A DNA stretch of 25,576 nt, taken from the IMG/VR virus record IMGVR_UViG_3300006484_000048, positions 1 to 25,576 of that record; one strand, given 5' to 3'. Below, in pieces: positions 125 to 25,188 of the stretch. Source of the stretch: a virus. Numbering within the stretch: position 1 is the stretch's first letter; every line of letters begins with the position of its first letter. Both the position numbers and the translations under genes were made by a program. The notes beneath the pieces were generated by a model that did not search any database, was not told the DNA's origin, and saw only the letters and a program-made list of their open reading frames with translations.

Positions 125-135
125 ATTATAAATAC
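125..135 (-). promoter_or_regulatory. late-promoter-like motif (copy 1)
   Basis: In the coding direction the sequence is GTATTTATAAT. It sits in the short gap between the stop of the 360-aa gene (145) and the start of the partial gene (108). It matches the 11-base consensus RTATTTATAAY shared by eight intergenic sites in this window. The promoter role is inferred from this placement. Confidence 0.6.
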
Positions 136-144
136 TAAACATCC

Positions 145-1227
145 TTAGTGCCTATCGATGTTTATTAAAATAGTTGTGTCTGTTGTTTTAGATGTCGGTA
201 AAGGTTTCGCTAACTTACCAACAGCTAGTAATTCATGTGCATCATTATATAAACCTACAGTTGAAATATAGGGTGTAAAATATGAGCCTGTTATATAATT
301 AAAAGGGATTCCGTCATTCCCTGATGTTATGGTTGGGTTTTGTGAGTAATTAAATTCACTTTCACCTATTGTTACTTTATATTGTGTCTCATAAAGTGTA
401 TACGATGATGATAATGATACTTCTAAGTCGGATCCAGATATGAATCCTTTAAAAAAGTCTCTACTAACCTGACCACCATCTCCATAGTTACTATACTTAT
501 AGGGATTTTTACCATAACCAAATTCATTAGAAAATGGATTAGTTATTGTAGCTACTCCATGAGTGTATATTATATTACCCACTACATCACCAAATAATGA
601 TATTAATCTACCTTCCCCATCATCTGTAAAAGTTCCTCCTGATGATTCTTCATATACCCCAAAATCAAACTTAAATGATCCTGGTTGTATTTTATCACCA
701 AATATATTGGAAGGGATAGATAATACAGCTATATCAGAAACACCAGGTTTAGTTTTCTGAGTGGGGATTGATTTTTGTTCTAGTAAATCTGTTTGTCTGT
801 AATTATCGTATATTGTATTATACTTAGAACCTTCTACAACTCCATCAGATCCAAAATATGGTAGACTAGCATCGGACATTGTAAAATCTCCATTACTATC
901 TACACTCCCTGAGATATAGTTTGTATAGTATAAATGTTTTACAGAATTGTATATAGATGATTCTTTGAAAGAAGAATAAAGACCAGATGAATAATTATAT
1001 TCACTATTGTAATCAATATTTTTACCTACATATCTTTCTATTTGACCACCAAAACCATAATCATCAATTCTCTCTAGACTTTCTGAATAACTACCAGTAC
1101 CAAAAGATATAAAGGAATATCCTCCAGATGAGGAAAATATTGGTATAATATTAAATTTATACCCCTTGTTTACCTCTAATGGTGAAACAATTATGTCTGA
1201 TGAGTTGAATTGTTTGTATGCGCTCAT
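145..1227 (-). CDS. structural protein with C-terminal domain shared with the upstream gene (360 aa)
   Basis: This is probably a virion (tail or baseplate) protein of unknown exact role. Its last 80 or so residues (SEFNYSQNPTI, then STVGLYNDAHELLAVGKLAKP) match the C-terminus of the preceding 350-aa protein nearly word for word, so the two are paralogous at least in that domain. A similar 'EFNxSxNP ... TIGLYNDxxxLLAVxKLxKPL' ending is, as I recall, common in structural proteins of marine T4-like phages. The N-terminal two thirds are Ser/Gly/Tyr rich and differ from the paralogue. The gene begins 4 nt after the stop of the 350-aa gene, so they are co-transcribed. No signal peptide or membrane segment is visible. 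Structural role is family knowledge plus context; function is not known. Confidence 0.8.
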   Translation of the reverse strand: MSAYKQFNSSDIIVSPLEVNKGYKFNIIPIFSSSGGYSFISFGTGSYSESLERIDDYGFGGQIERYVGKNIDYNSEYNYSSGLYSSFKESSIYNSVKHLYYTNYISGSVDSNGDFTMSDASLPYFGSDGVVEGSKYNTIYDNYRQTDLLEQKSIPTQKTKPGVSDIAVLSIPSNIFGDKIQPGSFKFDFGVYEESSGGTFTDDGEGRLISLFGDVVGNIIYTHGVATITNPFSNEFGYGKNPYKYSNYGDGGQVSRDFFKGFISGSDLEVSLSSSYTLYETQYKVTIGESEFNYSQNPTITSGNDGIPFNYITGSYFTPYISTVGLYNDAHELLAVGKLAKPLPTSKTTDTTILINIDRH

Positions 1228-1231
1228 TCAT

Positions 1232-2284
1232 TTAGAAATCTAACTTTACTCTAACAAGTGATTCTTTTGTAAAATCCTTTAAAAGCGGTTTTGACAACTT
1301 GGCTACTGCTAGTAAATCGTTTTGGTCATTATATAATCCAATCGTTGTTACATACGTTTGTGGTGCATTTATGTATGAATCCCAATACACCTCACCTGTA
1401 GCTCCTTTAATGAACGATGGATTTTCTGAGTAGTTAAATTCTGAGTTTCTTGATCTGACAAATATAAAATCTGATGTTAGGGTTTCTTCACAGTTTACTC
1501 TAAACGATGAACCTCTTACAATAGCACCAAATAGTTTTGAGTTATTTTCCCCATCAACATCTAAGTTTCTATTAGTTTGTAAATCTATACCTATATTAGG
1601 ATTATCTGTAGTTGCTATAGTTGTAGTTGAAGGTTGATCTAATGCTGAACCATTTAGTAAAATTAATCCTGTGTCAGGTAAAAATAAACCATATGATCCT
1701 GAGTTAGTATAACCTGCGTTGATTCCGTCTGATGTACCTGGTATAGCTCCTTGTCTTACTATTTGATAAGCTCTTTGAGTACCAAAATATGATGGTATAG
1801 TTACATCGTTTGAGTTATCTGTAAGTGTAAGAGCTTTTCCTGTTGCTCCTTGTAGTGTTAAAGATAAAGTTCCAGGTAATAGTTTTTCTTTATATCTAGC
1901 TCTTTCGATTGATAGAGCATAGATGTATCCTGGTGTGTAGGATGAACCGAATTGAAAATCTTTATCTTCATCTTCTAATACTAAAGTACGATATTGACCA
2001 TAGATAGTTGATGTTGTAGATTTATTAGGAACAGCATCATTAAAGTAAACCCCACCACCTGATGTTTTATCACCATAGGCTATATCAAACTGAGGAGTAG
2101 ATCCTGCAACTGTTGTTTCTGATTGGTTTACTGCTAAATAGTATTCACCTGAAAGAGAGGCTACTCGTTGTGCTGATGAAGTGAAGAAGGTAGATAACTC
2201 TACAGTCTCGTTACTCCATACGGTTTGTGATACAGAATCTGCACTTACTAAAAAATCTTCTGGATCTAATCTTTTGAATCCCAT
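1232..2284 (-). CDS. structural protein with conserved 'GLYNDxxxLLAVxKLxKPL' C-terminus (350 aa)
   Basis: This is a probable tail/baseplate component. The C-terminal region contains NSEFNYSENPSF and later VTTIGLYNDQNDLLAVAKLSKP, and ends in RVKLDF. It is shared with the 360-aa neighbour and with a widespread but poorly characterised class of marine T4-like structural proteins. The N-terminal part opens MGFKRLDPEDFLVSADSVSQ. The middle is rich in Ser/Thr/Gly and predicted beta structure, as expected of virion appendages. It starts 3 nt after the stop of the 222-aa gene and ends 4 nt before the 360-aa gene, so it is an inner member of an operon started by the promoter near 2974. Whether the paired proteins form a hetero-oligomer cannot be told from sequence. 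Confidence 0.82.
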   Translation of the reverse strand: MGFKRLDPEDFLVSADSVSQTVWSNETVELSTFFTSSAQRVASLSGEYYLAVNQSETTVAGSTPQFDIAYGDKTSGGGVYFNDAVPNKSTTSTIYGQYRTLVLEDEDKDFQFGSSYTPGYIYALSIERARYKEKLLPGTLSLTLQGATGKALTLTDNSNDVTIPSYFGTQRAYQIVRQGAIPGTSDGINAGYTNSGSYGLFLPDTGLILLNGSALDQPSTTTIATTDNPNIGIDLQTNRNLDVDGENNSKLFGAIVRGSSFRVNCEETLTSDFIFVRSRNSEFNYSENPSFIKGATGEVYWDSYINAPQTYVTTIGLYNDQNDLLAVAKLSKPLLKDFTKESLVRVKLDF

Positions 2285-2287
2285 ATC

Positions 2288-2956
2288 TTATTTTGTTGAT
2301 GTTTTATTAATAGTAATAGGAACAGTAATACGAGCACCTGAGTCTAAACCAATGATAGTTAGAGTGGTTGTTATTGATGAGTTAGACCCAAATAACGTAT
2401 TAATAGTAGTTGCTCTTAGGTTGATTTGTGTTCCAATAACAGTTTTGGATACGTTTGTACCTATAGTTGTTGTTGAGTTAGCGTTTGCGGATGTTGCTGC
2501 TTCTGTATTAATACCAACACCGTTGAAGTTAGATAATAATCTAATATCAGCGATTGTTGCTGCGTATCCACTTGTTTCAAATGACTGAGCTGCGTCAAGA
2601 TAGTTAAGTGTTTGAGGTGTAATAGCAAGTTGAGCACCTTGTTTTAAAGTGATTGCTGTATAACCAACATCTAATACTGGAAGTTTAGCTGTTCCCCTTG
2701 GTAGAGTTACTAACTTATACTTCATGATTTGTGATTCATCAGGAAATGCTTCTAATAAAGGCATATTGTCAATAGCTTCTCCATAATATGAAGAACCAGA
2801 TGGGTGATTTGGATTATATTGTGTATAATCGATTTCGTCATCTGCTAAAGCGAACTGAGTAATTTGGAATGATCCGTCGTTTTTAGCTAACGATTCTCTT
2901 CCTTTTTTTGTTAGAATAGCGTCAACTGTTACAACGCTGTTATTTAAATAGCCCAT
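2288..2956 (-). CDS. conserved structural-module protein (222 aa)
   Basis: The N-terminus, MGYLNNSVVTVDAILTKKGR followed by ESLAKNDGSFQITQFALADDEIDY, is of a type I associate with T4-like phage structural modules. It reads as a small domain that positions a variable beta-rich part. The C-terminal 70 residues are Thr/Ile rich and low in charge (for example TTLTIIGLDSGARITVPI). It is the first gene of a short operon with the 350- and 360-aa genes, and has a late-promoter-like motif 17 nt before the ATG, separating it from the 688-aa gene. No catalytic motif is visible. Virion protein is an inference from context and resemblance; the exact role is unknown. Confidence 0.8.
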   Translation of the reverse strand: MGYLNNSVVTVDAILTKKGRESLAKNDGSFQITQFALADDEIDYTQYNPNHPSGSSYYGEAIDNMPLLEAFPDESQIMKYKLVTLPRGTAKLPVLDVGYTAITLKQGAQLAITPQTLNYLDAAQSFETSGYAATIADIRLLSNFNGVGINTEAATSANANSTTTIGTNVSKTVIGTQINLRATTINTLFGSNSSITTTLTIIGLDSGARITVPITINKTSTK

Positions 2957-2973
2957 TTTGTATGTTGTATTTT

Positions 2974-2984
2974 ATTATAAATAT
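2974..2984 (-). promoter_or_regulatory. late-promoter-like motif (copy 2)
   Basis: The coding-strand sequence is ATATTTATAAT, followed by AAAAT. It lies in the 30-nt gap between the 688-aa gene stop (2987) and the 222-aa gene start (2956), and probably drives the 222/350/360-aa operon. The identical 11-mer occurs upstream of five other genes here. Confidence 0.65.
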
Positions 2985-2986
2985 GA

Positions 2987-5053
2987 TTATATTAAGTTCT
3001 TTTCAATAAGTGATGTTATAATATCGTCTGGGTTTTTCCTTAGTGCATCTACTCTATATTGGGGTGTGACTATACCCGGTGATGATGATGCCGAAACAGG
3101 AAATCCATATGGTTTTTGCTCGTTCAAGATAACGAAGCCTGGGTTATAGGCCAACCTCCTTATTAAAAAGAAGTTAGGATTTACGCTTGCGTCTACTTCT
3201 TTGTCTAAAGTAACGGTTAACGATACTGAAGATGTGTAATTCACGTTTACTACTTTGTAACTATAGTCTTCGTTATTTTCAAATCTAAACTCATCTCCTG
3301 GTGTTGATAAACTTTGAGATACTAAAGACCAAGGTGATGTAACAGGATCAAACTTCGTAAACGATGGTTCTACACCTGAAGGGAAATCTGTATTTTCACC
3401 TGGATTGTATGGTAGGTCTCCCATATAGTAGTTTGAATCATATGTATTAATCAAATCAGATGATACACAACGAAGTTCTTTTCTATTAGATACGTTTACA
3501 GACCACCAAGGACTTATTGATGTAATATTAGTAGTTCCTAATAGTGGTATTGTATTAGAGTTAGTAGTTGATGAGTTTTGTGAAAATAAAATAGGGTTAG
3601 GATAAGTACCTACAGAATAAACTGATGGGGTAACTGATTCTAATTTCTTTAATTCTTTAGCTTCATCAATATTTTGTATACTTACTATAACGTTAGTTGG
3701 AGTACTATTTGAATCTTTTAGTTTAAACGTATTCTCTAAGTTATTAAAGTTTATATCAGATAATGATGGATCATATAGTGTTGATGATGCGTCAATAAGA
3801 TATTTTACAAATAAAGCGGTTTTATTATTTAAGTTAGGATATGGATCCACAACTTTACTAAAGTATCCTAAATAAGCGTTTAATGATTCAACATTAGGTA
3901 TAGATCCTAAGTTATTAGTAGGTTCACCTTCTTGATATTGGTTTACCTCTTTACGTGTTGTTTTAGTTCCTATATATCTAATACCAGTATGTGATGTTTG
4001 ACTGTAGTTCGAATCAGGTGTTGCTGCTTTTTCAGCAGAATTTTGACGTAATAACTCAATATTTTGTGGTAATAAAATACCAGACCCACTTAAGTTAGAT
4101 GAGTTTGAGTAATCTACATCCTCTATAAATAAAGATTGTCTAGATGATATTACGTTATTTAAAACAGGTTGACAATCGGGGTTATTTTCTAAGTCTAACC
4201 CTGTTGTTAACCCTAAATATGATTCAGTGTCAATAGCTTCACCGGGTGTTGAAAATGACATTGAGTATTCAGTTACTATTAAATGATCATATGCTGTAGA
4301 ATCATCATCAACTGATACTGATAGTTTTACAGTATCGTTAATTTGGATATTAGATGAATCGAAAGTTGTTTTCATTTCAATACTACCTGATTTAGTAGTT
4401 GGAGATAAAACATAAGATGATGTGTATATCGTATTATTAAGATACATATTCAACGATGCCTTACCCCAAGTATCTAACCCATTAGGTGATTCAAATGTTG
4501 CTGATGCTGTTACTGATACATCCACAACGGGTTGTGCTGAAAATGTATATATACCATCATTAGGGTCTTGTGAAGCGTCTTTATAAACTATATAAGCATT
4601 GGAAACTTCCCAATTATAATATAATTGACTATTTATAGTGCTAACTTCAGTATAGGATAATACAACATATATTTTATATGCCCTATGTGCTTGAGTATCA
4701 TACCACCAACTATTAGCAAATTGTTGAGAGTTATAATCTCTACTTATATTTTGTGATCCAAAGTAGTTAGATGAAGCATATATCTCATCATCAGAGTTAT
4801 GTGGAATACTTTCACCTTCAGGAGTAATAAATATACCACCATTTATAATAGGATCAGTTTTTGCCTTTATGAGTGTTGTTTTACTTCTAGTAGATGGATC
4901 TAGGTTTACAAATTTAGGTTCAAATAGGTTTTCAGTACCAGTAGCCCAAATCCTACCTTCTCTATAGTAATATTCTAAATCATTATTACCTTGAAGGGTG
5001 CTAGCATTTGTAAGCCTTAAAAATATGTTATCTGGTTGTATGTCTCTTGCCAT
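2987..5053 (-). CDS. large virion structural protein (688 aa)
   Basis: I do not recognise a named family. The protein opens MARDIQPDNIFLRLTNASTL and is Ser/Asn/Thr/Tyr rich throughout, with alternating hydrophobic patterns suggesting mostly beta structure (for example SVTASATFESPNG and VTLDKEVDASVNPNFFLIRR). It has no signal peptide, membrane segment or evident enzyme motif. It starts 11 nt after the giant 1560-aa protein ends and is transcribed with it. Position after gp25, gp6 and the giant protein suggests a baseplate-peripheral or fibre-connecting protein, comparable in place (not demonstrably in sequence) to the T4 gp8–gp10 group. The next gene has its own promoter-like motif, so this is the last gene of the preceding transcription unit. 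Confidence 0.8.
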   Translation of the reverse strand: MARDIQPDNIFLRLTNASTLQGNNDLEYYYREGRIWATGTENLFEPKFVNLDPSTRSKTTLIKAKTDPIINGGIFITPEGESIPHNSDDEIYASSNYFGSQNISRDYNSQQFANSWWYDTQAHRAYKIYVVLSYTEVSTINSQLYYNWEVSNAYIVYKDASQDPNDGIYTFSAQPVVDVSVTASATFESPNGLDTWGKASLNMYLNNTIYTSSYVLSPTTKSGSIEMKTTFDSSNIQINDTVKLSVSVDDDSTAYDHLIVTEYSMSFSTPGEAIDTESYLGLTTGLDLENNPDCQPVLNNVISSRQSLFIEDVDYSNSSNLSGSGILLPQNIELLRQNSAEKAATPDSNYSQTSHTGIRYIGTKTTRKEVNQYQEGEPTNNLGSIPNVESLNAYLGYFSKVVDPYPNLNNKTALFVKYLIDASSTLYDPSLSDINFNNLENTFKLKDSNSTPTNVIVSIQNIDEAKELKKLESVTPSVYSVGTYPNPILFSQNSSTTNSNTIPLLGTTNITSISPWWSVNVSNRKELRCVSSDLINTYDSNYYMGDLPYNPGENTDFPSGVEPSFTKFDPVTSPWSLVSQSLSTPGDEFRFENNEDYSYKVVNVNYTSSVSLTVTLDKEVDASVNPNFFLIRRLAYNPGFVILNEQKPYGFPVSASSSPGIVTPQYRVDALRKNPDDIITSLIEKNLI

Positions 5054-13199: not shown

Positions 13200-13606
13200 T
13201 ATTGAAATGTTAACTCAACGTTATCTGTTAATCCAGTTTGAGCAATACTATATTTTAGTGATACTGTCACTGTATATTGATCAGGATTTGATGCTACTTC
13301 TAAATCATCTATAATAACGTTAGGGATATTTTCGTTTATACCTTGTTGTATAGTTTCTTCTAGACCTTCTAGGTTATCGTTTTCTATTTGTTCAAATATA
13401 AAGTTTTTTAAACCTGCTCCAAAAGTAGGATTAGCGATTCGTTCTCCTGGGTTCGTTAATAAATAGTTAACTAAGTTGTATTTTATAGCATCCTTAGTTT
13501 GATAGGTTTGGTTAAAGACAGCCGGAGCACTAAAGGGTAAAGCTACACCTATAGCGACTCTAGGTCGTAAATCGTTAGGAAATATTTGTCTTTCTCCGAA
13601 TGCCAT
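13199..13606 (-). CDS. gp25: baseplate wedge protein gp25 (gpW/gp25 family)
   Basis: A 135-aa gp25-like baseplate wedge protein, the small lysozyme-like-fold component that binds gp6 and initiates sheath attachment. Visible family features are the YNLVNYLLTNPGERIANPTF block (residues about 44-63), GAGLKNFIFEQ just after it, and a C-terminal beta pair ending YTVTVSLKYSIAQTGLTDNV. These match the PF04965 pattern 'xxLxxLLxTxxGERxxxPxFG'. The length is typical. It shares a one-base stop/start overlap with the gene on each side (13606 and 13199), indicating a tightly coupled operon. The family is known to lack lysozyme activity in virions despite its name, so an enzymatic role should not be assumed. 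Confidence 0.93.
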   Translation of the reverse strand: MAFGERQIFPNDLRPRVAIGVALPFSAPAVFNQTYQTKDAIKYNLVNYLLTNPGERIANPTFGAGLKNFIFEQIENDNLEGLEETIQQGINENIPNVIIDDLEVASNPDQYTVTVSLKYSIAQTGLTDNVELTFQ

Positions 13607-13956
13607 TATTTATTCATTATACCCATTATTTGATCCATTGATACTTCACCTTCAGGTAACTTACCATTTGGAGAAGTTGTATCAACCGGACCGTTTATTT
13701 GTAGACCTTGTCGTGGTGCTACGTCTCCTGATGTAAACTGTGCTTTCATATCACCTAAAACATTCATATAGTTTTCTCTGATATTTTGTTTAACTTCTGG
13801 GGTAGCATGTGGTGCTGTTGGGGTTGAATAAGTTGGTTGTTCGATTATTGGTTGTTTATTTGACTTAATTGCCTCCAATAAAATGTCCTTTAGTTCCTCT
13901 TGGATTACTTCCTTTACTACTTCTTTTAGTGTGTTTTTAAGTTCTGTTAGTTTCAT
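13606..13956 (-). CDS. small helical protein upstream of gp25 (116 aa)
   Basis: This is a protein of unknown function with two parts. Residues 1-35 form an amphipathic helix or coiled coil (LTELKNTLKEVVKEVIQEEL). A Pro/Thr linker (PTYSTPTAPHATPEVKQ) follows, and the C-terminal half has EVSMDQIMGIMNK at the end. It sits between the 536-aa baseplate protein and gp25, sharing the TAATG-type one-base overlap with gp25. The start is unusual: the late-promoter-like motif ends only 3 nt before the ATG, so a transcript from it would be leaderless or nearly so, and translation may instead depend on a longer transcript. No other in-frame ATG exists before residue 63, so the start is likely right. Role could be a baseplate assembly factor; this is a guess from position. 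Confidence 0.75.
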   Translation of the reverse strand: MKLTELKNTLKEVVKEVIQEELKDILLEAIKSNKQPIIEQPTYSTPTAPHATPEVKQNIRENYMNVLGDMKAQFTSGDVAPRQGLQINGPVDTTSPNGKLPEGEVSMDQIMGIMNK

Positions 13957-13959
13957 ATG

Positions 13960-13970
13960 ATTATAAATAT
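13960..13970 (-). promoter_or_regulatory. late-promoter-like motif (copy 3), abutting a start codon
   Basis: The coding-strand 11-mer ATATTTATAAT is followed by CAT and then the ATG at 13956, leaving a 3-nt gap. It lies between the 536-aa gene stop (13975) and the 116-aa gene. The very small spacing distinguishes it from most other copies. Confidence 0.55.
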
Positions 13971-15585: not shown

Positions 15586-16853
15586 TATACAGTTCTACTA
15601 ACTTTAGATATTAGTTTATCGTTTTTAACTAGGTTAAGAATAGATTGGGATACTGCTTTAGTATTAGATGCTGCTGCGCTAACGGGAATATTAGGTACTG
15701 GAGAACCACCAGGCCAGTTTTGACTTTTTTCTAAAGCACCACATACATTTTTTATACCTTTTAATAATGATTCAAACTGCTGCATAAAATCATCACCTAA
15801 GATTAGGGCTTGAGCTGCGTTTTTTGAACCTAGGTTTACTTTAGGTGCAACAAGGTTAATATCAGAATCTGATGCTATACCTACTGTACCTATAGATGTT
15901 ATTGCTATTTGTTTATTAGCAGATATTAATAATGAGTCTGTTTTTGCGTTAAGTACTAATCTACCACTATTTAATACTATTTGATTTTCTAAATATTCTG
16001 GGGTTGTTGTAGGTGGTTCTTCAAACGCTTCATATAACTCGTTATCTAACTCTAAAGGTATTTTTTGATCTTTGGTTAGATAAATAGACGATAAATCTTT
16101 ATTAATATTTTCAGTTACAGGTAACCATCCTAACTCAGATGAGTCTTCGGGTTGGCCGTTTCTAATAATAGTAATGGGTGAACCATTTTCTCCGTTTTCA
16201 GACCAATCGTTAGTATATTCTGAGTCTGTTTTTGATGTATTACCTAATCTTATACTGTTACCAAATCTACCTTCAACTATATTATCACCAGCAAAGGGTA
16301 AAATAGGATGTATGTTAGTTTCTTCTACAAAAGTACCACCTGATTCTCCGTTTAAATCTATCTCAGTTGAACCATCCTTAACTCGTCTAACGTTCCCACC
16401 TGATGTTTGAGCGTAATCTTGTGTTTGTTCGTCTGATTGTGGTTTTAGTGGGTTTGGATATGCGTTGTGGTGTGGGTGGTTCCAAAGTGAAAGTGTATTT
16501 AAATAATAAAACTTCTCTGAACCAGTACGTGTCCCTAAACCTGTATCTGGTAGTTTAAATATTAATACTAACTCGTTTATTAAAGGATATTTTTTACTAT
16601 TAGATAATAGTGGGGTTGCTATAGCTTTATTTTCCCCTCTTGATGATTGATAATTTACTAACTCGAACTCAATAGTTCCTATACCATTCCATTCACCATA
16701 ACTCTCAAAGTTACTTGAGTTTTCATCCAATATAATATTTAATACTCTACCAGTTTGGAAGGTATTATCTAAGTTATTTGCTCTAACTGCTAAGCCAGAT
16801 ACATCAACTTGATTTAAGTTATTATTTAATGCAGCAAATCCTAATGTAGACAT
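15585..16853 (-). CDS. baseplate central spike / gp5-like protein (422 aa)
   Basis: Probable tail-tip spike. Residues about 85-125 (YPLINELVLIFKLPD, KFYYLNTLSLWNHPHHNAYP) and 182-205 (HPILPFAGDNIVEGRFGNSI then RLG) form the pattern of an OB-fold hub domain that ends in 'EGRFGxSIRxG'. Residues about 295-345 show the short repetitive beta strands of a gp5/VgrG-type needle (LNSGRLVLNAKTDSLLISAN, then INLVAPKVNLG). The C-terminal 75 residues are helical with NVCGALEKSQNWPGG. No lysozyme catalytic domain like that of T4 gp5 is visible between the two, so cell-wall digestion must come from elsewhere. One-base overlaps with both neighbours place it in the hub/baseplate operon. Spike identity is a fold-level inference. 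Confidence 0.82.
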   Translation of the reverse strand: MSTLGFAALNNNLNQVDVSGLAVRANNLDNTFQTGRVLNIILDENSSNFESYGEWNGIGTIEFELVNYQSSRGENKAIATPLLSNSKKYPLINELVLIFKLPDTGLGTRTGSEKFYYLNTLSLWNHPHHNAYPNPLKPQSDEQTQDYAQTSGGNVRRVKDGSTEIDLNGESGGTFVEETNIHPILPFAGDNIVEGRFGNSIRLGNTSKTDSEYTNDWSENGENGSPITIIRNGQPEDSSELGWLPVTENINKDLSSIYLTKDQKIPLELDNELYEAFEEPPTTTPEYLENQIVLNSGRLVLNAKTDSLLISANKQIAITSIGTVGIASDSDINLVAPKVNLGSKNAAQALILGDDFMQQFESLLKGIKNVCGALEKSQNWPGGSPVPNIPVSAAASNTKAVSQSILNLVKNDKLISKVSRTV

Positions 16854-17194
16854 TACTTAGTTGATTCTGGAAGGTTCTTTATTTCTCCTAAAAGTTGTGC
16901 TTTTTCCTCTTCAGTTAATAGTGTAGTTTCAACATCACTACCCTTATTTTGAGTTGCTCTTTGGACTATAGTAGCCATTTTAACTAATACTTCATCGTTT
17001 TTGATACCCAATTCCATATATTCTTTGATTAGTGGTACTATAAGAGTGGCATCACCAATGTCCTCGATTAATGGTTTTAACTCTGAGATTAAACCTATGA
17101 TTTGGGCACCTCTAGTATTTTGATTTTCGTGGATTTCTTGGAGTATATCGGAGAACTTCTTCTTACCGAATATTTTATCGTCAAACTTACCCAT
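16853..17194 (-). CDS. small helical protein leading the baseplate operon (113 aa)
   Basis: A predominantly alpha-helical protein beginning MGKFDDKIFGKKKFSDILQE, with IIGLISELKPLIEDIGDATL in the middle and TLLTEEEKAQLLGEIKNLP near the end. I know of similar small proteins beside the spike gene in T4-like marine phages but not their function. It is the first gene after the late sigma factor and is preceded by a full copy of the late-promoter-like motif (8 nt upstream of the ATG). It then overlaps the spike gene by one base, so it probably opens the late baseplate transcription unit that runs through spike, gp25 and gp6. A role in tail assembly is inferred. Confidence 0.75.
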   Translation of the reverse strand: MGKFDDKIFGKKKFSDILQEIHENQNTRGAQIIGLISELKPLIEDIGDATLIVPLIKEYMELGIKNDEVLVKMATIVQRATQNKGSDVETTLLTEEEKAQLLGEIKNLPESTK

Positions 17195-17202: not shown

Positions 17203-17213
17203 ATTATAAATAT
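17203..17213 (-). promoter_or_regulatory. late-promoter-like motif (copy 4), baseplate operon
   Basis: ATATTTATAAT on the coding strand is followed by AAAATATT and the ATG at 17194. It lies in the 25-nt space between the sigma factor gene stop (17220) and the 113-aa gene. It is positioned to drive the whole baseplate operon. Confidence 0.65.
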
Positions 17214-17219: not shown

Positions 17220-17924
17220 TTAAAATCTTGCGTATCCATTATCTAAATAGAATAAATATTCTGATTTGAATATGGTATGTAGTTGTTGAGCTATTCGTGT
17301 GATTTTTGGTGTTTTAACATCTACCATTTCTCTGATGTAGATGTATAGTGCCTTTTTGTTAAAGATCTCTATATTTTCTCTCTTACGAAATAACTCTAAA
17401 ATAGCATCTGCGATTTGAGCATCATTACCTTTAGGAAATAAATCAAAAATATTTGATGATACATGCTCCACATATAAATCCATATACTTATCCAAATCAC
17501 TTTTCACATACTCTTCATCCTGATTATATCTAAAATCATCGTTTCTGTCTAACTCGGAAGCATCTACCTTTTGGATTCGTTTCTTATAGTTTTTAGTATT
17601 ATATAAGATTAACCATCGTTTTACAATAGTACCAAAATAAGAATATGCCTTAGCACCCCTAGATGGATCAAATAAGTGAATTTTAGAGAGTAGATATGTT
17701 ATAATCTCATGTTGGAGATGTTCTATTTGATCTACTTCAGTATAATAAAATTTAAATGTGTGAATGATATTCTGAGTTAATTTGAAGAATGCATAGTGTA
17801 TCTCTTCTCCATAAATCTTAGAACGTTCATCGAAATCAGAAGACGCATTGTATCTTACTATAGCGTCTTCAGTTTCGTCTGTAAAGTAGTATCTAGAACT
17901 ACCTGGTGCTGCTTTTCTTGGCAT
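17220..17924 (-). CDS. gp55: late-transcription sigma factor, T4 gp55-like (234 aa)
   Basis: A minimal phage sigma factor that would direct host RNA polymerase to late promoters. Residues about 65-125 contain the region-2-like core: DQIEHLQHEIITYLLSKIHL, then FDPSRGAKAYSYFGTIVKRW and LILYNTKNYKKRI. This is the 'FDPxRGxKAxxYFxxIxKRxL' pattern of gp55-like proteins, which interacts with the polymerase clamp and recognises the -10 element. The C-terminus (KTPKITRIAQQLHTIFKSEY) is suitable for binding the beta flap. There is no region 4 -35 reader, as expected. It lies downstream of the HD and membrane-protein genes, immediately before the structural operon. Gene placement and motif together make the call strong, although sequence identity to T4 gp55 itself is probably low. 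Confidence 0.85.
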   Translation of the reverse strand: MPRKAAPGSSRYYFTDETEDAIVRYNASSDFDERSKIYGEEIHYAFFKLTQNIIHTFKFYYTEVDQIEHLQHEIITYLLSKIHLFDPSRGAKAYSYFGTIVKRWLILYNTKNYKKRIQKVDASELDRNDDFRYNQDEEYVKSDLDKYMDLYVEHVSSNIFDLFPKGNDAQIADAILELFRKRENIEIFNKKALYIYIREMVDVKTPKITRIAQQLHTIFKSEYLFYLDNGYARF

Positions 17925-19382: not shown

Positions 19383-19823
19383 TTATTTTAACCAATTCTC
19401 AAGAAATCTTTGGATTTTAAGTAAGTGAGCGCACTTTTCATACTCTTCTCCACTCTCATGGAACTTAATAGCTAACTGGAGTACGTAAGCTAAATCGTAT
19501 GGGTTGAATAAAGTTAAATCTAAAACCTCTTCCTTATTGTCTAAATCAAAATCCTTAATATAATACCAAGCACGATTATAGACTATGAACGATGCTTGTC
19601 TCTTGGTTTCCTCGTGATCATAGTTCTTAGCATCTGCTTCTTTCATCCCACGTTTAAAGTGTTCAAAAAATAGTTGATGATTTTCAATCAACTTCTTAAA
19701 CTTACCAATCTTAAAGTGAGTTGATGATGATACCTCAATTTCAATCTCATCATCATTCATTTCTACCTTACCTCTATCTTCAGGTTGGGGAAATAAGTTA
19801 AATAAGTCGTTCTTATCAATCAT
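19383..19823 (-). CDS. unknown acidic helical protein (146 aa)
   Basis: I do not recognise this protein. It opens MIDKNDLFNLFPQPEDRGKV and has a KIGKFKKLIENHQLFFEHFK segment. The C-terminal half is helical and aromatic (NRAWYYIKDFDLDN, LAYVLQLAIKFHESGEEYEK). The overall pattern suggests a soluble alpha-helical protein, possibly TPR-like in its last 60 residues. There is no signal peptide. Its start codon is only 2 nt from the late-promoter-like motif, and a terminator just upstream insulates it from the H1-like operon, so it appears to be transcribed independently and late. It could be a virion or assembly protein, but only regulation supports this. Confidence 0.7.
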   Translation of the reverse strand: MIDKNDLFNLFPQPEDRGKVEMNDDEIEIEVSSSTHFKIGKFKKLIENHQLFFEHFKRGMKEADAKNYDHEETKRQASFIVYNRAWYYIKDFDLDNKEEVLDLTLFNPYDLAYVLQLAIKFHESGEEYEKCAHLLKIQRFLENWLK

Positions 19824-19825: not shown

Positions 19826-19836
19826 GTTATAAATAT
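19826..19836 (-). promoter_or_regulatory. late-promoter-like motif (copy 5), abutting a start codon
   Basis: ATATTTATAAC on the coding strand is followed by AT and the ATG at 19823. It is downstream of the terminator at 19863-19888, so the 146-aa gene is set up as its own unit. Upstream of the motif, TTTTTTCGTATATT partly resembles the 27-bp element found at 20568 and 22078. Confidence 0.55.
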
Positions 19837-19862
19837 ACGAAAAAAATATCGCTTCTCCAAAT

Positions 19863-20087: not shown

Positions 20088-20537
20088 TTAAATTTTAGTT
20101 AATAACTGTTTTAATACACGATTGTGTTTATTCGTGGATAAATACGCACAAAATTCATTAAAATCGATGTTACGTTGGATTTTGCTGGATCTGTATCTCT
20201 CTCCTTTTTCAAATTTAAAACCCGCATTAGTATCATACCATTTATTATCTATGGTTTCAACATATTGTCTATTATAGATATTATTGGGGTTGTCTTCAAA
20301 AAACAAACAAAACGTTTGATTTTTATCAAATATAACTGCTGATTCCTCACCCTGACTCTCAATATCTTCTTCTAGCATAAATACATGATTTTCACCAGCG
20401 GTTTTGATTTTAGTATTATAATAAAAATTTCTAGATGGTTCTAACACCTTACCATTTTCATCAACAACTGGCTCAGTAAACCATGCTGGGTTTTCAAAAT
20501 AGGGTGTTCTTGTAAATCTTTGTGGATCTTTGTTCAT
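20088..20537 (-). CDS. unknown protein in the H1-like operon (149 aa)
   Basis: Unrecognised soluble protein. It opens MNKDPQRFTRTPYFENPAWF and is rich in Asn, Tyr, Phe and Glu. It contains NQTFCLFFEDNPNNIYNRQY and ends FNEFCAYLSTNKHNRVLKQL. No membrane segment, signal peptide or enzyme motif stands out. The upstream region carries the 27-bp conserved element about 30 nt before the ATG, and a divergent promoter for the plus-strand gene lies just beyond. Being co-transcribed with the H1-like gene and lacking the late motif, it is more likely to be an early or middle protein, perhaps host-takeover related, but that is inference. Confidence 0.72.
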   Translation of the reverse strand: MNKDPQRFTRTPYFENPAWFTEPVVDENGKVLEPSRNFYYNTKIKTAGENHVFMLEEDIESQGEESAVIFDKNQTFCLFFEDNPNNIYNRQYVETIDNKWYDTNAGFKFEKGERYRSSKIQRNIDFNEFCAYLSTNKHNRVLKQLLTKI

Positions 20538-20567: not shown

Positions 20568-20594
20568 AATATACGAAATATATCTACGGTAGCC
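20568..20594 (-). promoter_or_regulatory. 27-bp conserved upstream element (copy A), probable early/middle promoter
   Basis: 24 of 27 bases are identical to the element at 22078-22104. In the coding direction it contains GGCTACCGTAGATATATTTC, then GTATATT. It ends 30 nt before the ATG of the 149-aa gene. TATATTTC differs by one base from the Bacteroidota -7 consensus TAnnTTTG, but a correctly spaced -33 box is not obvious. Its conserved placement before two operons argues for function. Confidence 0.55.
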
Positions 20595-20633
20595 AAATAC
20601 TTACTATAAGATAGGGTGGAGTGGTTAAAACCT

Positions 20634-20644
20634 TTATTTATATT
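20634..20644 (+). promoter_or_regulatory. degenerate late-promoter-like motif for the plus-strand gene
   Basis: TTATTTATATT on the plus strand matches 9 of 11 positions of the minus-strand motif ATATTTATAAT and lies 25 nt before the ATG at 20670. That it is oriented with the only plus-strand gene supports the orientation of the motif as a promoter reading in the coding direction. Confidence 0.4.
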
Positions 20645-20669
20645 ATATATACACACTAAAAAACAAACT

Positions 20670-21059
20670 ATGGAATTAGCAATATTTTTTATAAGCGGAA
20701 TTCAACTTACACTATTAGCGATACTTTTATACCAATATGGTTCAATCAATAAAAACTATAATGTTATAAAGAAAAATCAAACCACAACAGATGATAGTTA
20801 TGAAAAGTGGATTCAAATGACCACTAAACAATTAGATGAAATAAGAGAACACATTTCTACATCTGATTTCGCTGACGCTGCCACATTTAACCGCGAAATT
20901 ACCGCATTTTCTGAGCGTTTAAACGCGGTTGAATCATCAATCACCATACTCGCTAACAAGGAAGATAACGACGTTAAAACGCTAAAAGACAGCATTAAGG
21001 AAATTAAGATATACCTACATGGAGTAATATCTGGTGAGGCAAGTAATAAAGGTTATTAG
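20670..21059 (+). CDS. small membrane-anchored coiled-coil protein (129 aa)
   Basis: This is the only plus-strand gene. The first 25 residues (MELAIFFISGIQLTLLAILL) form a transmembrane helix. The rest is a charged helix (KWIQMTTKQLDEIREHIST, then NREITAFSERLNAVESSITI) with coiled-coil periodicity. Unknown function; the layout suits a membrane-tethered scaffold, spanin-like protein or holin regulator. An open frame extends upstream to a GTG at 20616, but it would put polar residues and promoter sequence into the protein, so the ATG at 20670 is preferred. It converges on the 105-aa gene with an 8-nt gap. Part of the reading frame (20870-20990) is richer in CG than its surroundings. The divergent pair at 20537/20670 shares a regulatory region of about 130 nt. 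Confidence 0.75.
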   Translation: MELAIFFISGIQLTLLAILLYQYGSINKNYNVIKKNQTTTDDSYEKWIQMTTKQLDEIREHISTSDFADAATFNREITAFSERLNAVESSITILANKEDNDVKTLKDSIKEIKIYLHGVISGEASNKGY

Positions 21060-21067: not shown

Positions 21068-21385
21068 TTAGGAGTAAAGAGAAGAATCAATTTCATCATC
21101 TAAATCGAAACCATCTCCAGCTTTAGCAGCTTCTTCTTTTCCAATCCAGTATATTACTTTACTAAAACCATCATCGTTTGGTTTAGTAATTGTAAAATAA
21201 TTCATATACTTTTCTTTAACTTTTCTAGTTGTTCTTTTACTATCTATTGGTAATAGACCCAACTCTTTTGCTTGTTTAAAAGTAATGGCACTATCATATT
21301 CCATTTCTTCAGCACCTTCCCCAACCATCTTCATCACTTTGGCTACGTTAAGAAACTTCTTAAATCTACTTTCAAATAATTCCAT
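21068..21385 (-). CDS. unknown small protein (105 aa), late-class promoter
   Basis: An unrecognised soluble protein opening MELFESRFKKFLNVAKVMKM. It contains ITFKQAKELGLLPIDSKRTT followed by basic RKVKEKYMNYFTI, and has an acidic C-terminal tail (AGDGFDLDDEIDSSLY). The basic middle followed by an acidic end is a common arrangement in phage DNA-mimic or scaffold proteins, but nothing firm can be said. It has the full 11-base motif 13 nt before its ATG, which insulates it from the micro-gene operon upstream and suggests late expression. It is convergent with the plus-strand membrane-protein gene. Confidence 0.7.
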   Translation of the reverse strand: MELFESRFKKFLNVAKVMKMVGEGAEEMEYDSAITFKQAKELGLLPIDSKRTTRKVKEKYMNYFTITKPNDDGFSKVIYWIGKEEAAKAGDGFDLDDEIDSSLYS

Positions 21386-21398: not shown

Positions 21399-21409
21399 AT
21401 TATAAATAT
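21399..21409 (-). promoter_or_regulatory. late-promoter-like motif (copy 6)
   Basis: ATATTTATAAT on the coding strand is followed by AAAATATAATAGT and the ATG at 21385. It lies between the stop of the 36-aa gene (21412) and the 105-aa gene. It shares the AAAAT extension with copies 2 and 4. Confidence 0.62.
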
Positions 21410-21908: not shown

Positions 21909-22052
21909 TTATTTATTAAACCATTCTTTCATCATCTCTCTCATCTCTTGAATATTTTCATCTACAAGACTTTGTTCATACTCATCTAACTTAGAGTATT
22001 TTACACCTGTGGTGGATTCTGATAATTCGTTTTTTAATTGTCTCTTTGTCAT
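21909..22052 (-). CDS. micro-gene (47 aa) opening the small operon
   Basis: A 47-codon frame beginning MTKRQLKNELSESTTGVKYS and continuing with an acidic helix (EYEQSLVDENIQEMREMMKE) ending in WFNK. The MTKRxQL start is like that of the 83-aa protein in the same operon, hinting at duplication or shared initiation context. The 27-bp conserved element lies 25 nt before its ATG. Unknown function. Confidence 0.58.
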   Translation of the reverse strand: MTKRQLKNELSESTTGVKYSKLDEYEQSLVDENIQEMREMMKEWFNK

Positions 22053-22077
22053 ACCTTTATTTTTAATATTATACGTC

Positions 22078-22104
22078 AATATACGAATAATATCTACGGT
22101 AACC
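22078..22104 (-). promoter_or_regulatory. 27-bp conserved upstream element (copy B), probable early/middle promoter
   Basis: The coding-strand reading contains GGTTACCGTAGATATTATTC, then GTATATT. It is 24/27 identical to copy A at 20568-20594 and similarly spaced from the following ATG (25 nt against 30 nt). It probably drives the four micro-genes. Confidence 0.55.
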
Positions 22105-22118
22105 TAACAAGTCACATA

Positions 22119-22730
22119 TTACTTTTCAGCGTATAGGTAAGTACTTAATAAAGTCCCTATAGTAATAGATTTAGTACGAGCATCATTAAGTTGTTCTTCA
22201 CTTAGTTTTTTAACTCTAGAACAATATTCGATTCCTAACGTACCAATAAACTCATCGTTAATAGAGTTTAAAGCAAATAAATATGATGATTTAGACCCAG
22301 TCCCCTCAGCAAATATTTTTAAACCAAAGTGATTTCCCTTTTTATAGTTGGGGATTAATATTTCACCATCACTATATAGATGTGAAATCGGTTTACTAAA
22401 CAGGGAAACAGGAATATTTTTAAAGGTATCACTTATAGGACTAACACCTGGAGTAAACATTTCATGAAATATAGAAAACTTTTGTATCGACTTACCAGTA
22501 GGGTAGAAGTTTCCACCATTATGGAATTGAGATATCCATACTCGACAAGCGTCTAACTCATCCTTAAGTTGTTCTAGTTGATCATCCACTAACATATTAG
22601 TTTGTAGGGCGGATTTTATAGGGTCGATTTTAGTTTTATTATTAAGATAATGACGGTAACGAGTTACCAATAAGGGACCTACTACGGCACTTATGATGAC
22701 CACTAAGATTGCTAATTCCAATTCAAACAC
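22119..22730 (-). CDS. membrane-anchored GAF-like sensor-type protein (203 aa)
   Basis: Residues 1-24 (FELELAILVVIISAVVGPLL) form a transmembrane helix right at the N-terminus. A linker or coiled coil follows (QTNMLVDDQLEQLKDELDAC). Residues about 60-200 read as a GAF-like domain: CRVWISQFHNGGNFYPTGKS, QKFSIFHEM, GLKIFAEGTG, SSYLFALNSIND, EFIGTLGIEY. The 'RxxIxxFHNGGxFxxxxxxxKxS' signature recurs in phage and bacterial GAF-like proteins. GAF domains bind small ligands such as cyclic nucleotides, but no output domain is fused here. The start is a GTG at 22730; no ATG is available in frame before the membrane helix. A late-type motif lies 37 nt upstream. The GAF assignment is by fold pattern and is moderately sure. 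Confidence 0.7.
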   Translation of the reverse strand: MFELELAILVVIISAVVGPLLVTRYRHYLNNKTKIDPIKSALQTNMLVDDQLEQLKDELDACRVWISQFHNGGNFYPTGKSIQKFSIFHEMFTPGVSPISDTFKNIPVSLFSKPISHLYSDGEILIPNYKKGNHFGLKIFAEGTGSKSSYLFALNSINDEFIGTLGIEYCSRVKKLSEEQLNDARTKSITIGTLLSTYLYAEK

Positions 22731-22767
22731 AATTTAATTTTTAAACATTTATAAACAACCCTATATA

Positions 22768-22778
22768 GTTATAAATAC
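22768..22778 (-). promoter_or_regulatory. late-promoter-like motif (copy 7)
   Basis: GTATTTATAAC on the coding strand overlaps the stop codon of the lipoprotein gene by one base. It is 37 nt before the GTG start of the GAF-like gene, the longest spacing among the copies. Confidence 0.5.
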
Positions 22779-23305
22779 TAATTTTTCCTCCCAATAACAT
22801 TAGAACTATTACTTCCCCTTCTGGTAGTTGGTCTAACTCTACGTGGTGGGGGAGAAGGTGGATTAACTCTCCTAGGTGGATTATTAGAAGGTATTATTCT
22901 AGGTCTGTTTGGTGTCCTTGGTCTTGGTTCATTTGGTCTAATCCTTGGCCTAGGTCTAGGTTTTGGTTTAACCTTTGGTCTAACACTCGGGCGATTAGGA
23001 ACAATATACCTATTATTAGATACTCTATACTGACTCCAGTATCTATAGTTGTCCCAGTTATAGTATTGATTCCAGAAGTAAGGATCGTTGTATCTCCAGT
23101 TGTTCCAGTACCAGTTATTATTGTGTCTATATCTAAGAAACTCAGTGTCTCTATATTTGACAAACTGTCTATAGGGGACACTAATGGTATCTCCAACTTC
23201 TGTAATGGCGAGTATACTTTTAACTTCATATCCTTTGTTTGTTGTGAATGTATAAGACCCACATGATTGAATAACTAAATAAAATAAGATTAATAATTTT
23301 TTCAT
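22778..23305 (-). CDS. predicted lipoprotein with aromatic segment and Pro/Arg-rich tail (175 aa)
   Basis: The N-terminus, MKKLLILFYLVIQSCGSYTF, is a lipoprotein signal peptide with a relaxed lipobox before C15, as is usual in Bacteroidota. Residues about 60-95 are extraordinarily aromatic and Asn rich (NNWYWNNWRYNDPYFWNQYY). From about residue 105 the chain is a Pro/Arg/Asn-rich repeat (RPKVKPKPRPRPRIRPNEPR and similar) up to the C-terminus, which would be extended and highly positively charged. It follows the DUF285 gene after 8 nt and is probably co-transcribed with it. It could coat or alter the host envelope, for instance for superinfection exclusion, or bind peptidoglycan/LPS. This is inference; signal peptide and composition are seen directly. 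Confidence 0.75.
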   Translation of the reverse strand: MKKLLILFYLVIQSCGSYTFTTNKGYEVKSILAITEVGDTISVPYRQFVKYRDTEFLRYRHNNNWYWNNWRYNDPYFWNQYYNWDNYRYWSQYRVSNNRYIVPNRPSVRPKVKPKPRPRPRIRPNEPRPRTPNRPRIIPSNNPPRRVNPPSPPPRRVRPTTRRGSNSSNVIGRKN

Positions 23306-23313
23306 ATTTTTTA

Positions 23314-25161
23314 TTATATAGGACCACCATCAGTTATGGTCCACGGTGTATTTACTAAATTTGTATGTGCCACTCCAGATACACTGGAGTTATATTGTAA
23401 GTCATTACTAAACTCTACCCCTGCTAAACGTGTGCTATTTACCCACCCATTAAGTAAATTATCATAGTTAGTTGTAGTCATATCACTACTAACAAACATA
23501 TTAATTGCTGTAGTTAAAGCTCCAACATCCCATGCCCCAATATCTTGATTGAAGGATGTTGATTCATAAAACATTTCATCCATATCTGTAATAGTACTTG
23601 TATCCCATGCTGATAGATCTCGGTTAAATAAGGTAGCATTTTTGAACATTTCGTTAGTTCTAATAACACCATTCATATCCCAAGTAGATAAATCTTGATT
23701 GAATACATCAGCCCCATTAAACATTGCTTTCATAGTAGTTACGTTAGGTATATTCCAATTCCCAATAGGTTGGTTAAATACTGTTGAATAAGCAAACATA
23801 AAGTCTGTATCCTGAAGTTGTGGGGTTTGCCAATTACTTATGTCCTGATTGAAGGAAGTTCCATAAAACATAGAATCCATAGTAGTAGCTGATCTCACAT
23901 CCCAATTAGAAATGTCTTTATCAAAAACTGTATTATCCTTAAACATATTTCTAAAAACTTGGACATTGCCAGTATCCCAATTACTTAATTCCTGATTGAA
24001 GTTTTCAGCAGCATTGAACATCTGAAACATTGTAAGGACATTAGAAGTATCCCAATTATTTAGAGGTTGATTAAATACAACAGCATTTCTGAACATACTA
24101 GACATATTAGTGACACTACTAACATCCCAGTTAGTTAGGGGTTGATTAAATGCTGGGGTAAAACCAAACATATTATTCATATTAGTAACACTACTAACAT
24201 CCCAATCCTTAATACTATCACTCTCACCATTATTAAATTTTGGCATAGAACTAAACATCCCCGCAGTTCTAACAACATTAGACATTCTCCAAGCACCAAT
24301 ATTTTGATTAAATATTTCAGCACCACCAAACATTGCTTGCATATCAGTCACATTGCCCACATCCCAACTATCTAATGGTTGATCAAAGGCATCTGCTCGT
24401 CTAAACATTTGTCTCATATCTGTAACATTACCCACATCCCAATTATTTAGGGGTTTATTATATGAGTCTGTATTAAAAAACATACTCTCCATATTAGTCA
24501 CATTAGAAACATCCCAATTAGATATATCATAATCAAAGTTGATGGCAAAAGTAAACATCATCCTCATATTAGTTAATAGACTTGTATCGGGTAAATCTTT
24601 AGCTGAAAAACCAATTAGGTTGACACAACTACTAAACATCTGATACATTGAAACCCACTTAGTATCTCCCCAGTTTAAAATATCAACTACAGTAGCTCTT
24701 ATCGTATTATTCATCCCAGTATAATCTTGGGTGTACGAGTTAAAACCACCACTTTCGATTTCAACATCATAAATTCCAGCTACGGGCCAAGTGCGAGTAG
24801 GAACACCAGTTCCACTTTCAGTAGTACCATCACCCCAATTAATAGTCCAAGTAGTAGGATCACCACCATCTTGTTGAAGAGCTAATATAGTTTGAAAACC
24901 AGCAGTAGGTATATTAAGTTGGATAACAAACTTAGTACCATAACCATCAATAATAGCTTGGGCAGCTTTCTCTTCTTCACTCCCACCTGCAGCCCTTTGA
25001 GCAATCATTAACTTGTGTTGGTCAAGGTTAGTTATATAGTTTTCAAATAAGATTTTCTCATCTCTATATTTTTCCTTTAACTCCAATATAGTTAAACCTT
25101 CATTATCTTCCCTTTCTATAAAGTGTAACCACTCTCCAGGATTTTCTTGTGCTATTAACAT
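23314..25161 (-). CDS. DUF285 (BspA-like) repeat protein with PKD-like domain (615 aa)
   Basis: Residues 1-60 are a polar helical region (EWLHFIEREDNEGLTILELK). Residues about 77-140 are PKD-like (TWTINWGDGTTESGTG, then TWPVAGIYDVEIESGG). Residues 209-561 hold about 14 repeats of 25 residues of the type FNQPLTNWDVSSVTNMSSMF, the DUF285/PF03382 'mycoplasma lipoprotein/BspA' repeat. The C-terminus (NYDNLLNGWVNSTRLAGVEF, ending WTITDGGPI) is the normal ending of this family in Bacteroidota. No signal peptide is visible, unlike the host surface versions, so it is likely a virion adhesin or receptor-binding protein, or is released at lysis. A late-type motif lies 16 nt before the ATG. Its neighbour downstream is the lipoprotein. 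Family is certain; role is inferred. Confidence 0.9.
   Translation of the reverse strand: MLIAQENPGEWLHFIEREDNEGLTILELKEKYRDEKILFENYITNLDQHKLMIAQRAAGGSEEEKAAQAIIDGYGTKFVIQLNIPTAGFQTILALQQDGGDPTTWTINWGDGTTESGTGVPTRTWPVAGIYDVEIESGGFNSYTQDYTGMNNTIRATVVDILNWGDTKWVSMYQMFSSCVNLIGFSAKDLPDTSLLTNMRMMFTFAINFDYDISNWDVSNVTNMESMFFNTDSYNKPLNNWDVGNVTDMRQMFRRADAFDQPLDSWDVGNVTDMQAMFGGAEIFNQNIGAWRMSNVVRTAGMFSSMPKFNNGESDSIKDWDVSSVTNMNNMFGFTPAFNQPLTNWDVSSVTNMSSMFRNAVVFNQPLNNWDTSNVLTMFQMFNAAENFNQELSNWDTGNVQVFRNMFKDNTVFDKDISNWDVRSATTMDSMFYGTSFNQDISNWQTPQLQDTDFMFAYSTVFNQPIGNWNIPNVTTMKAMFNGADVFNQDLSTWDMNGVIRTNEMFKNATLFNRDLSAWDTSTITDMDEMFYESTSFNQDIGAWDVGALTTAINMFVSSDMTTTNYDNLLNGWVNSTRLAGVEFSNDLQYNSSVSGVAHTNLVNTPWTITDGGPI
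23479..24537 (-). repeat. 14 tandem 75-bp coding repeats of the DUF285 protein
   Basis: Units encode F(N/D)QPLxNWDVSxVTxMxxMF plus about 5 variable residues. They diverge at the nucleotide level but remain in frame; two units differ in length (one has 28 residues, one 24). They are protein-level repeats, not CRISPR or mobile repeats. Confidence 0.88.
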
Positions 25162-25177
25162 ATGCGATTATTCATTT

Positions 25178-25188
25178 ATTATAAATAT
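25178..25188 (-). promoter_or_regulatory. late-promoter-like motif (copy 8) before the DUF285 gene
   Basis: ATATTTATAAT on the coding strand, 16 nt before the ATG at 25161, the same spacing as copies 1 and 2. It suggests late expression of the DUF285 and lipoprotein genes. Confidence 0.65.

Follow-up and report, generated by a model that had tools for sequence, protein, structure and literature searches.

A gene-sense TATTTATA motif as the probable late promoter element of a phage family with a gp55-like sigma factor

The window analysed here is a whole stretch of 25,576 nucleotides (nt), positions 1 to 25,576 of the IMG/VR virus record IMGVR_UViG_3300006484_000048. It carries an 11-base motif, RTATTTATAAY (core TATTTATA), upstream of eight of its genes and on the strand of these genes. 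We propose, with a probability of about 0.8, that the motif is a late −10-type element, which is read in the direction of the genes by a gp55-like sigma factor of the phage together with the host RNA polymerase.

In the proposed mechanism the sigma factor (gene 17220–17924) and the host polymerase would recognize RTATTTATAAY, which is usually followed by A-rich sequence and is accompanied by no conserved −35 element that we could see. Transcription would start at an A about 4–6 nt after the octamer. The resulting late mRNA would have either no leader (motif end 1–4 nt from the ATG) or a leader of mostly ~5–15 nt.

The motif in the window

All 26 listed genes of the window lie on the minus strand, and one further likely gene lies on the plus strand. 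The exact motif occurs eight times on the minus (gene) strand and not once on the plus strand, whereas 100 shuffles of the window gave a mean of 0.66 copies and at most 3. The 27 upstream regions (up to 55 nt) contain 8 sense and 0 antisense copies. Under each of two background models, 3000 simulations of these regions gave ~0.05 copies on average and never more than 2; 0/3000 reached eight. A preliminary description of the window, made from the sequence alone, had listed the same eight sites and stated that no full copy lies inside a gene. All its coordinates proved correct, all eight copies are exact and on the gene strand, and the second statement holds for the window. At seven sites the motif ends 2–17 nt before the start codon, at the eighth 37 nt. 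The sites, the gene of the proposed reader and the related octamer of the plus-strand gene are listed below in coordinate order, with the distance from motif end to start codon.

125–135, minus strand: putative late-promoter motif GTATTTATAAT, 16 nt 5′ of an ATG whose A is at 108; the gene continues past the left end of the window
2974–2984, minus strand: putative late-promoter motif ATATTTATAAT, 17 nt 5′ of gene 2288–2956
13960–13970, minus strand: putative late-promoter motif ATATTTATAAT, 3 nt 5′ of gene 13606–13956, predicted to be leaderless
17203–17213, minus strand: putative late-promoter motif ATATTTATAAT, 8 nt 5′ of gene 16853–17194
17220–17924, minus strand: predicted gene of the gp55-like sigma factor (234 amino acids), proposed reader of the motif, assigned by profile and fold
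19826–19836, minus strand: putative late-promoter motif ATATTTATAAC, 2 nt 5′ of gene 19383–19823, overlapping a host-like TCGTATATT
20635–20642, plus strand: sense octamer TATTTATA, 28 nt 5′ of the ATG at 20671 of the lone plus-strand gene
21399–21409, minus strand: putative late-promoter motif ATATTTATAAT, 13 nt 5′ of gene 21068–21385
22768–22778, minus strand: motif GTATTTATAAC, the weakest site, 37 nt 5′ of the GTG of gene 22119–22730
25178–25188, minus strand: putative late-promoter motif ATATTTATAAT, 16 nt 5′ of gene 23314–25161 (DUF285 repeats)

The last base of the copy at 22768–22778 falls within the stop codon of the upstream gene. The 9/11 match that had been reported on the coding strand of the lone plus-strand gene was found as TTATTTATATT at 20634–20644, on the coding strand of the plus open reading frame (ORF) 20616–21059, and it contains an exact sense TATTTATA. 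Gene 23314–25161 (minus strand), behind the last copy, encodes a 615-amino-acid protein of DUF285 (PF03382) repeats in seven stretches.

The motif in a family of relatives

The protein encoded by gene 17220–17924 matches six phage records: four entries of Flavobacterium phage immuto (50.5% identity), LR756508 and Microcystis phage Mel-JY01. Scanning IMG/VR with this protein gave at least 586 encoded relatives, of which 80 were kept, and a second scan added 70. Dereplication of these 150 loci together with the window left 96 loci (1,156,445 bases); 55 of the 151 were dropped, at least 20% of their 25-mers being already present. The loci were gathered by the sigma gene alone, and ORFs were called by a simple script, with approximate starts.

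The 96 loci contain 214 copies of RTATTTATAAY, and 85 of the 96 have at least one. In gene sense and within 60 nt upstream of an ORF stand 180 copies, 4 are antisense upstream, 18 are inside ORFs (7 sense, 11 antisense) and 12 elsewhere. The copies are thus not scattered inside genes; such scattering had been named in the preliminary description as a result that would refute it. An earlier count in 81 loci, before dereplication, had given 191/205 copies in sense within 100 nt. Genes preceded by TATTTATAA have longer gaps before them (median 28 nt, 195 genes) than genes without it (3 nt, 1404 genes), and 155 of the 587 genes with a gap of at least 25 nt carry TATTTATAA; the motif thus marks the heads of some operons.

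Among nine loci from metagenome-assembled genomes (MAGs), five have an upstream 11-mer and one more has TATTTATA only. MAG contigs with both sigma gene and motif were in bins named Flavobacteriaceae, Winogradskyella and Flavobacteriales, and motif-less relatives (44% and 42%) were binned as a gammaproteobacterium and Nitrosopelagicus; such bins can be wrong. The hosts of the clade would be mainly Bacteroidota; immuto infects Flavobacterium.

Conservation was followed at orthologous genes, whose starts were taken from protein alignments; sense TATTTATA was sought within ~48 nt of the start. It is kept in 62/66 orthologues of gene 13606 and in 77/81 of gene 16853. No sense TATTTATA was found before orthologues of the sigma gene (0/22) or of genes 15585 (0/9), 13975 (0/1), 13199 (0/59), 11361 (0/31), 9747 (0/22), 5065 (0/29) and 18229 (0/79), and 8/51 orthologues of gene 10103 have it. 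Sense TATAAATA, the T4 late octamer, precedes 2/66 (13606), 5/81 (16853) and 6/79 (18229) orthologues. Gene 19383 has TATTTATA within 45 nt in only 18/70 orthologues, gene 23314–25161 in 2/3 aligned orthologues, and the single aligned orthologue of gene 22119 lacks it within 45 nt. The motif is kept in the single orthologue of gene 21068–21385 with an aligned N-terminus, and the immuto orthologue of gene 2288–2956 has a sense TATTTATA 19 nt 5′ of its start. In locus L083 the motif before the gene 19383 orthologue lies, by eye, a few bases after the 3′ end of an apparent tRNA gene and 1 nt from the ATG.

Orientation of the motif

The motif had been described as the T4 late octamer reversed. TATAAATA does stand on the strand opposite to the genes, but the label is misleading because it reflects near-palindromy: the complement TATTTATA agrees with TATAAATA at 6/8 positions in the same reading direction. 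Compared with the T4 octamer (−13 to −6), TATTTATA has TT in place of AA at −10 and −9 and no other difference. "Opposite strand" and "same strand, two substitutions" are two descriptions of one DNA, so the surroundings must decide the orientation.

The A frequency at the four positions following the 11-mer is 69, 90, 86 and 62% (165 family sites, whose flanks are blurred by shared ancestry), an A-rich extension confined to the sense side. No clear −35 box was seen in the 45 nt that precede these sites (at most 0.61 bit per position vs 1.48 in the core). In ten records 103 copies lie on the main motif strand of the record and 3 on the other; one of the three precedes a turned gene, one is antisense at a plus-gene start and one is intragenic. 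In this strand count RTATTTATAAY was absent from Mel-JY01, and T4 had two copies, antisense to late genes as expected for a TATAAATA phage. In the 96 loci the majority gene strand carries 201 copies and the minority strand 13; three of the 13 stand 11, 18 and 21 nt before a gene of the minority strand (L046, L029 and L127). In the window the sense octamer of the lone plus-strand gene likewise turns with its gene. A reversed-pattern control was itself strand-biased (12:0 in record G005), perhaps because TAATATTTATA overlaps true copies, and was not relied on.

The preliminary description had also offered antisense firing, i.e. T4-type TATAAATA promoters directed away from the genes. TATAAATA is literally present opposite to the genes, but the short, constrained distance to the sense start, the A-rich extension on the sense side, the placement at operon heads and the three motifs that turned with their genes all follow the sense gene, and we give antisense firing practically no credence. 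Its first proposal, a gp55-like factor that reads TATTTATAA(T/C) in gene sense, is the best supported, that factor being the probable reader.

The family has sense TATTTATA in the place of the T4-type sense TATAAATA. Upstream of genes the sense octamers number 236 TATTTATA vs 72 TATAAATA in the family, 20 vs 7 in immuto and 13 vs 1 in Mel-JY01, whereas the T4 control gave 4 vs 10.

The gp55-like sigma factor

With Pfam and PHROGs the protein of gene 17220–17924 could not be named at a useful threshold: Sigma70_r2 gave an E of 0.019, and phrog_234, a late sigma family, one of 0.13. When 30 relatives were combined into a profile, it matched that of seven T4-type gp55s (hhalign) over 126 columns, with a probability of 79.6 and E 1.5e-5. 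The AlphaFold 2 model is poor overall (mean predicted local distance difference test score, pLDDT, 52.6) and fair for residues 11–110 (54–87 by block). The sigma alignment had no match among PDB sequences. With Foldseek alone no hit of the model was below E 0.001, although its best rows were sigma factors. VIA-align was run on 994 chains pre-ranked by Foldseek, and the best match was 7d7c_F, T4 gp55 in the open complex (Z 10.5, 125 residues, root-mean-square deviation 5.9). Other sigma factors, with Z 10.4 and 9.9, tied with it, rows within 1 Z counting as ties, and a Z below ~13 may be unspecific for helical bundles. The 50 best VIA-align rows are all sigma or RNA polymerase entries by title. 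A sigma region 2 fold is therefore well supported, gp55 in particular less so.

IMG/VR scans with the Mel-JY01 and RM378 proteins gave no new relatives, the RM378 scan meeting only RM378 itself. Rhodothermus phage RM378 encodes an unannotated distant relative of the sigma factor (L176:2716–3510, NP_835607.1; hhalign 93.9). In LR756508 an in-frame stop lies 5′ of the start codon of the sigma gene, which is ordinary.

In T4 control phage the gp45 clamp profiles PF02916 and PF09116 found a match, the only one among 13 records that included complete immuto and Mel-JY01, and the DnaN profile (PF00712) had no match in six records; diverged clamps could be missed by either. Immuto, Mel-JY01 and records G004 and G005 combine a gp55-like sigma factor with no gp45-type clamp or DnaN detected by profile.

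A phage protein other than the gp55-like one might read the motif: we infer the link between sigma factor and motif, and most of each genome is unannotated. The loci were, however, collected by the sigma gene alone and 85/96 contain the 11-mer, and the fold is that of a promoter-reading domain. We consider another reader highly improbable.

Spacing and predicted leaders

The T4 late octamer spans −13 to −6 relative to the RNA start in the account cited (PMC1524935). If s is the number of nt between the end of the 11-mer and the ATG, this register would give a leader of s minus 3. In the 143 sites with s of at least 8, letters 4 and 5 downstream of the octamer are A in 97% and letter 6 in 66%. 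This A-rich zone 3–6 nt after the octamer is compatible with a T4-like register and is plausibly the start zone.

The promoter of gene 13606 has the octamer in 63 of 67 rows (66 loci and the window), and the remaining four carry TATTTATT or TATTTATG. Its spacing is bimodal: 20/63 rows have s of 1–4 (the window has s of 3), 43/63 have 9–18 and none has 5–8. On the tree of the sigma proteins (64 rows, 63 labelled), used only as a stand-in for promoter history, the short or long state needs 5 changes, at least 4 of them being forced by starred branches. The exact 11-mers of gene 16853 are spaced differently, with 0 at 1–4, 1 at 5–7, 54 at 8–14 and 6 beyond. For all other genes the counts are 14, 3, 33 and 10; at 4 of the 14 short sites an overlapping start was moved to the next in-frame ATG, and at one short site (L080) the spacing may in fact be longer.

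The bimodal spacing predicts leaderless or very short-leader mRNAs, and two working forms of late mRNA, leaderless and short-leader, may exist side by side. Such mRNAs would suit the ribosomes of Bacteroidota, which do not use a Shine-Dalgarno site. In the sources cited, the mRNAs of Flavobacterium johnsoniae are mostly leadered (87% longer than 10 nt, mean 33; PMC6847099), leaderless mRNAs make up 5.5% in F. psychrophilum (PMC9723704), and ~3.7% of the 5′ untranslated regions of Bacteroides thetaiotaomicron are shorter than 10 nt (PMC7366714).

Immuto, Mel-JY01 and control phages

In the T4 control (a 40 kb late stretch, same script) TATAAATA was found upstream of genes in 10 sense and 0 antisense copies, 14–28 nt from the starts. 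Immuto has 20 sense and 7 antisense upstream copies of TATTTATA, and the octamer precedes the terminase, portal, tail sheath, tail tube and tape-measure genes. Of its genes with an upstream TATTTATA(A/T), 14/21 are in the 80–160 kb half. Mel-JY01 (179 of 190 kb read) has 13 upstream sense copies of TATTTATA, 1 antisense copy and 39 inside ORFs; 9 of the 13 lie 22–42 nt from the start, comparable to T4. A Shine-Dalgarno core is present in 5/12 motif genes of Mel-JY01, in 3% of 1291 family genes and in 0/220 family motif genes. The distance from motif to start thus grows where Shine-Dalgarno sites are used, as expected of a promoter.

These data bear on the possibility that the motif acts in translation initiation, as an RNA-level element of the phage mRNAs, and is no promoter. 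The short distance to start codons and the near lack of Shine-Dalgarno sites in the family would agree with such a role. Against it, the sense octamer of Mel-JY01 is mostly 22–42 nt from the start and, in the 5/12 genes mentioned, upstream of the Shine-Dalgarno core; the motif is missing before most genes, including 432 of the 587 with a gap of at least 25 nt; unrelated Bacteroidota phages lack it; and a bimodal spacing (1–4 or 9–18 nt) would be odd for a ribosome site. A translational role is in our estimate very unlikely.

In five unrelated Cellulophaga, Flavobacterium and Polaribacter phages of similar base composition the 11-mer precedes 0/368 ORFs, compared with 178/1717 in the family; bare TATTTATA precedes 3 and TATAAATA 4 of the same 368. 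AT-rich Bacteroidota phages thus do not carry the 11-mer as a matter of course. When k-mers were ranked by enrichment over a Markov background, TATTTATA words led in the late region of immuto and were thus rediscovered de novo. Early-type words came first in whole immuto, the TCGTATATT class in the pooled family sample, with the TATTTATA class just below, and other words in Mel-JY01 and LR756508. An expectation-maximization motif search in the upstream regions of immuto, Mel-JY01 and LR756508 returned A-rich composition only.

A second, host-like promoter class

The sigma-A promoter of Bacteroidota consists of a −33 TTTG and a −7 TAnnTTTG box. The phages of the family have a class of elements that resembles it, TTGG-spacer-TCGTATATT, with 94 unique sites in the 96 loci; it was also noted in loci L009–L011. 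It is probably an early promoter class. In immuto 11/12 copies of the related TTTAGGTAT form are at 60–80 kb, among small hypothetical genes. The window has three TCGTATATT elements:

19832–19840, minus strand: host-like, probably early element, overlapping the late motif before gene 19383–19823
20568–20576, minus strand: host-like, probably early element, before gene 20088–20537
22078–22086, minus strand: host-like, probably early element, at the called TTG start of ORF 21909–22079

The overlap of TCGTATATT with the late motif at 19826–19840 is kept in L018 and L021 and possibly makes up a combined early and late promoter.

Could RTATTTATAAY itself be a variant of the host sigma-A promoter that needs no phage sigma factor? 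It is AT-rich, holds TATTT and in one window copy overlaps the host-like TCGTATATT. The 165 family sites do not, however, show the −7 TAnnTTTG box together with −33 TTTG: only 27% have the required T immediately 5′ of the 11-mer, and a clear −33 box is lacking. Moreover, the TTGG...TCGTATATT class exists separately in the same genomes, the five unrelated phages with hosts of this kind do not have the 11-mer, and the host of Mel-JY01 is cyanobacterial. A sigma-A variant has, in our judgement, little chance of being correct. Like the sigma-A promoter, the motif is an AT-rich element that would lie ~10 bp before the start; it is set apart by its sequence, by having no clear −33 box and by lying so close to the start codon.

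DISCUSSION

The reading of RTATTTATAAY as a late promoter element has several points against it. In the window the signal is carried by the exact 11-mer only: forms with one mismatch (15 vs 14.5 expected) or two (128 vs 140) are not enriched. Bare TATTTATA is less exclusive than the 11-mer, since in the 96 loci 67 upstream antisense and 228 intra-ORF copies, with 62 elsewhere, stand against the 236 in upstream sense. Ten of the 13 minority-strand copies of the 11-mer are unexplained and may be chance. Neither the 11-mer nor TATTTATA was found upstream in three of the nine MAG loci (L187, L188 and L190), and no such upstream motif was seen in one 40 kb stretch of LR756508 and one 20 kb stretch of RM378. 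In immuto 7/21 genes with an upstream TATTTATA(A/T) are in the first 80 kb, so that lateness is partial; the exact octamer is also missing from the 50 nt before its major capsid gene. Where the motif ends 1 nt from the ATG, the strict T4 register would put the start inside the AUG; either the start is nearer there or the register is not exactly that of T4. Finally, the assignment of gene 17220–17924 to gp55 itself, as opposed to sigma factors in general, is of moderate confidence.

The proposed promoter resembles the T4 gp55 system in having a single 8-bp AT box with AT-rich sequence downstream, placed before virion operons, in having no −35 element that could be found (45 nt upstream, 165 sites), and in the short one-domain sigma factor of similar fold encoded in the genome. 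It differs from T4 in the central TT of the sense octamer (AA in T4), in the spacing (mostly 1–14 nt after the 11-mer; 14–28 nt after the octamer in T4) and in the gp45 clamp profile, unmatched in immuto and Mel-JY01, where a diverged clamp could be missed. The family sigma factor is only remotely similar to T4 gp55, by profile match.

The TATAAATA/gp55 late promoter of T4 is also used by KVP40, and cyanophage S-PM2 has NATAAATA. A precedent for a changed late consensus with a diverged gp55 is the CTAAATA late promoter of Aeromonas phage Aeh1, as given in the passages cited (PMC1524935, PMC2988020). Aeh1 changes −13/−12 and keeps AAATA, whereas the family motif changes −10 and −9. We found no description of the motif in the literature of one open-access collection, which is no proof of its being unpublished.

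A wider proposal, to which we give somewhat less than even odds, is that these viruses form a T4-related clade, mainly of Bacteroidota, in which a gp55-type sigma factor with its −10 code moved to TATTTATA works with no recognisable T4 sliding clamp, and in which virion mRNAs are leaderless or have a ~5–15 nt leader, in hosts where leaderless mRNAs are rare.

The motif would provide a simple late-promoter rule for a large and almost unannotated phage clade (at least 586 encoded sigma relatives in IMG/VR), and it names a probable sigma gene where the immuto and Mel-JY01 records say hypothetical. The change at the centre of the octamer would be a natural change of −10 specificity in a small sigma factor. 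The split spacing offers a direct test of the use of leaderless phage mRNAs by Bacteroidota ribosomes, and immuto is in culture. A large, little-studied group of phages appears to switch on its virion genes from TATTTATA, often placed so near the gene that the mRNA may be almost leaderless.

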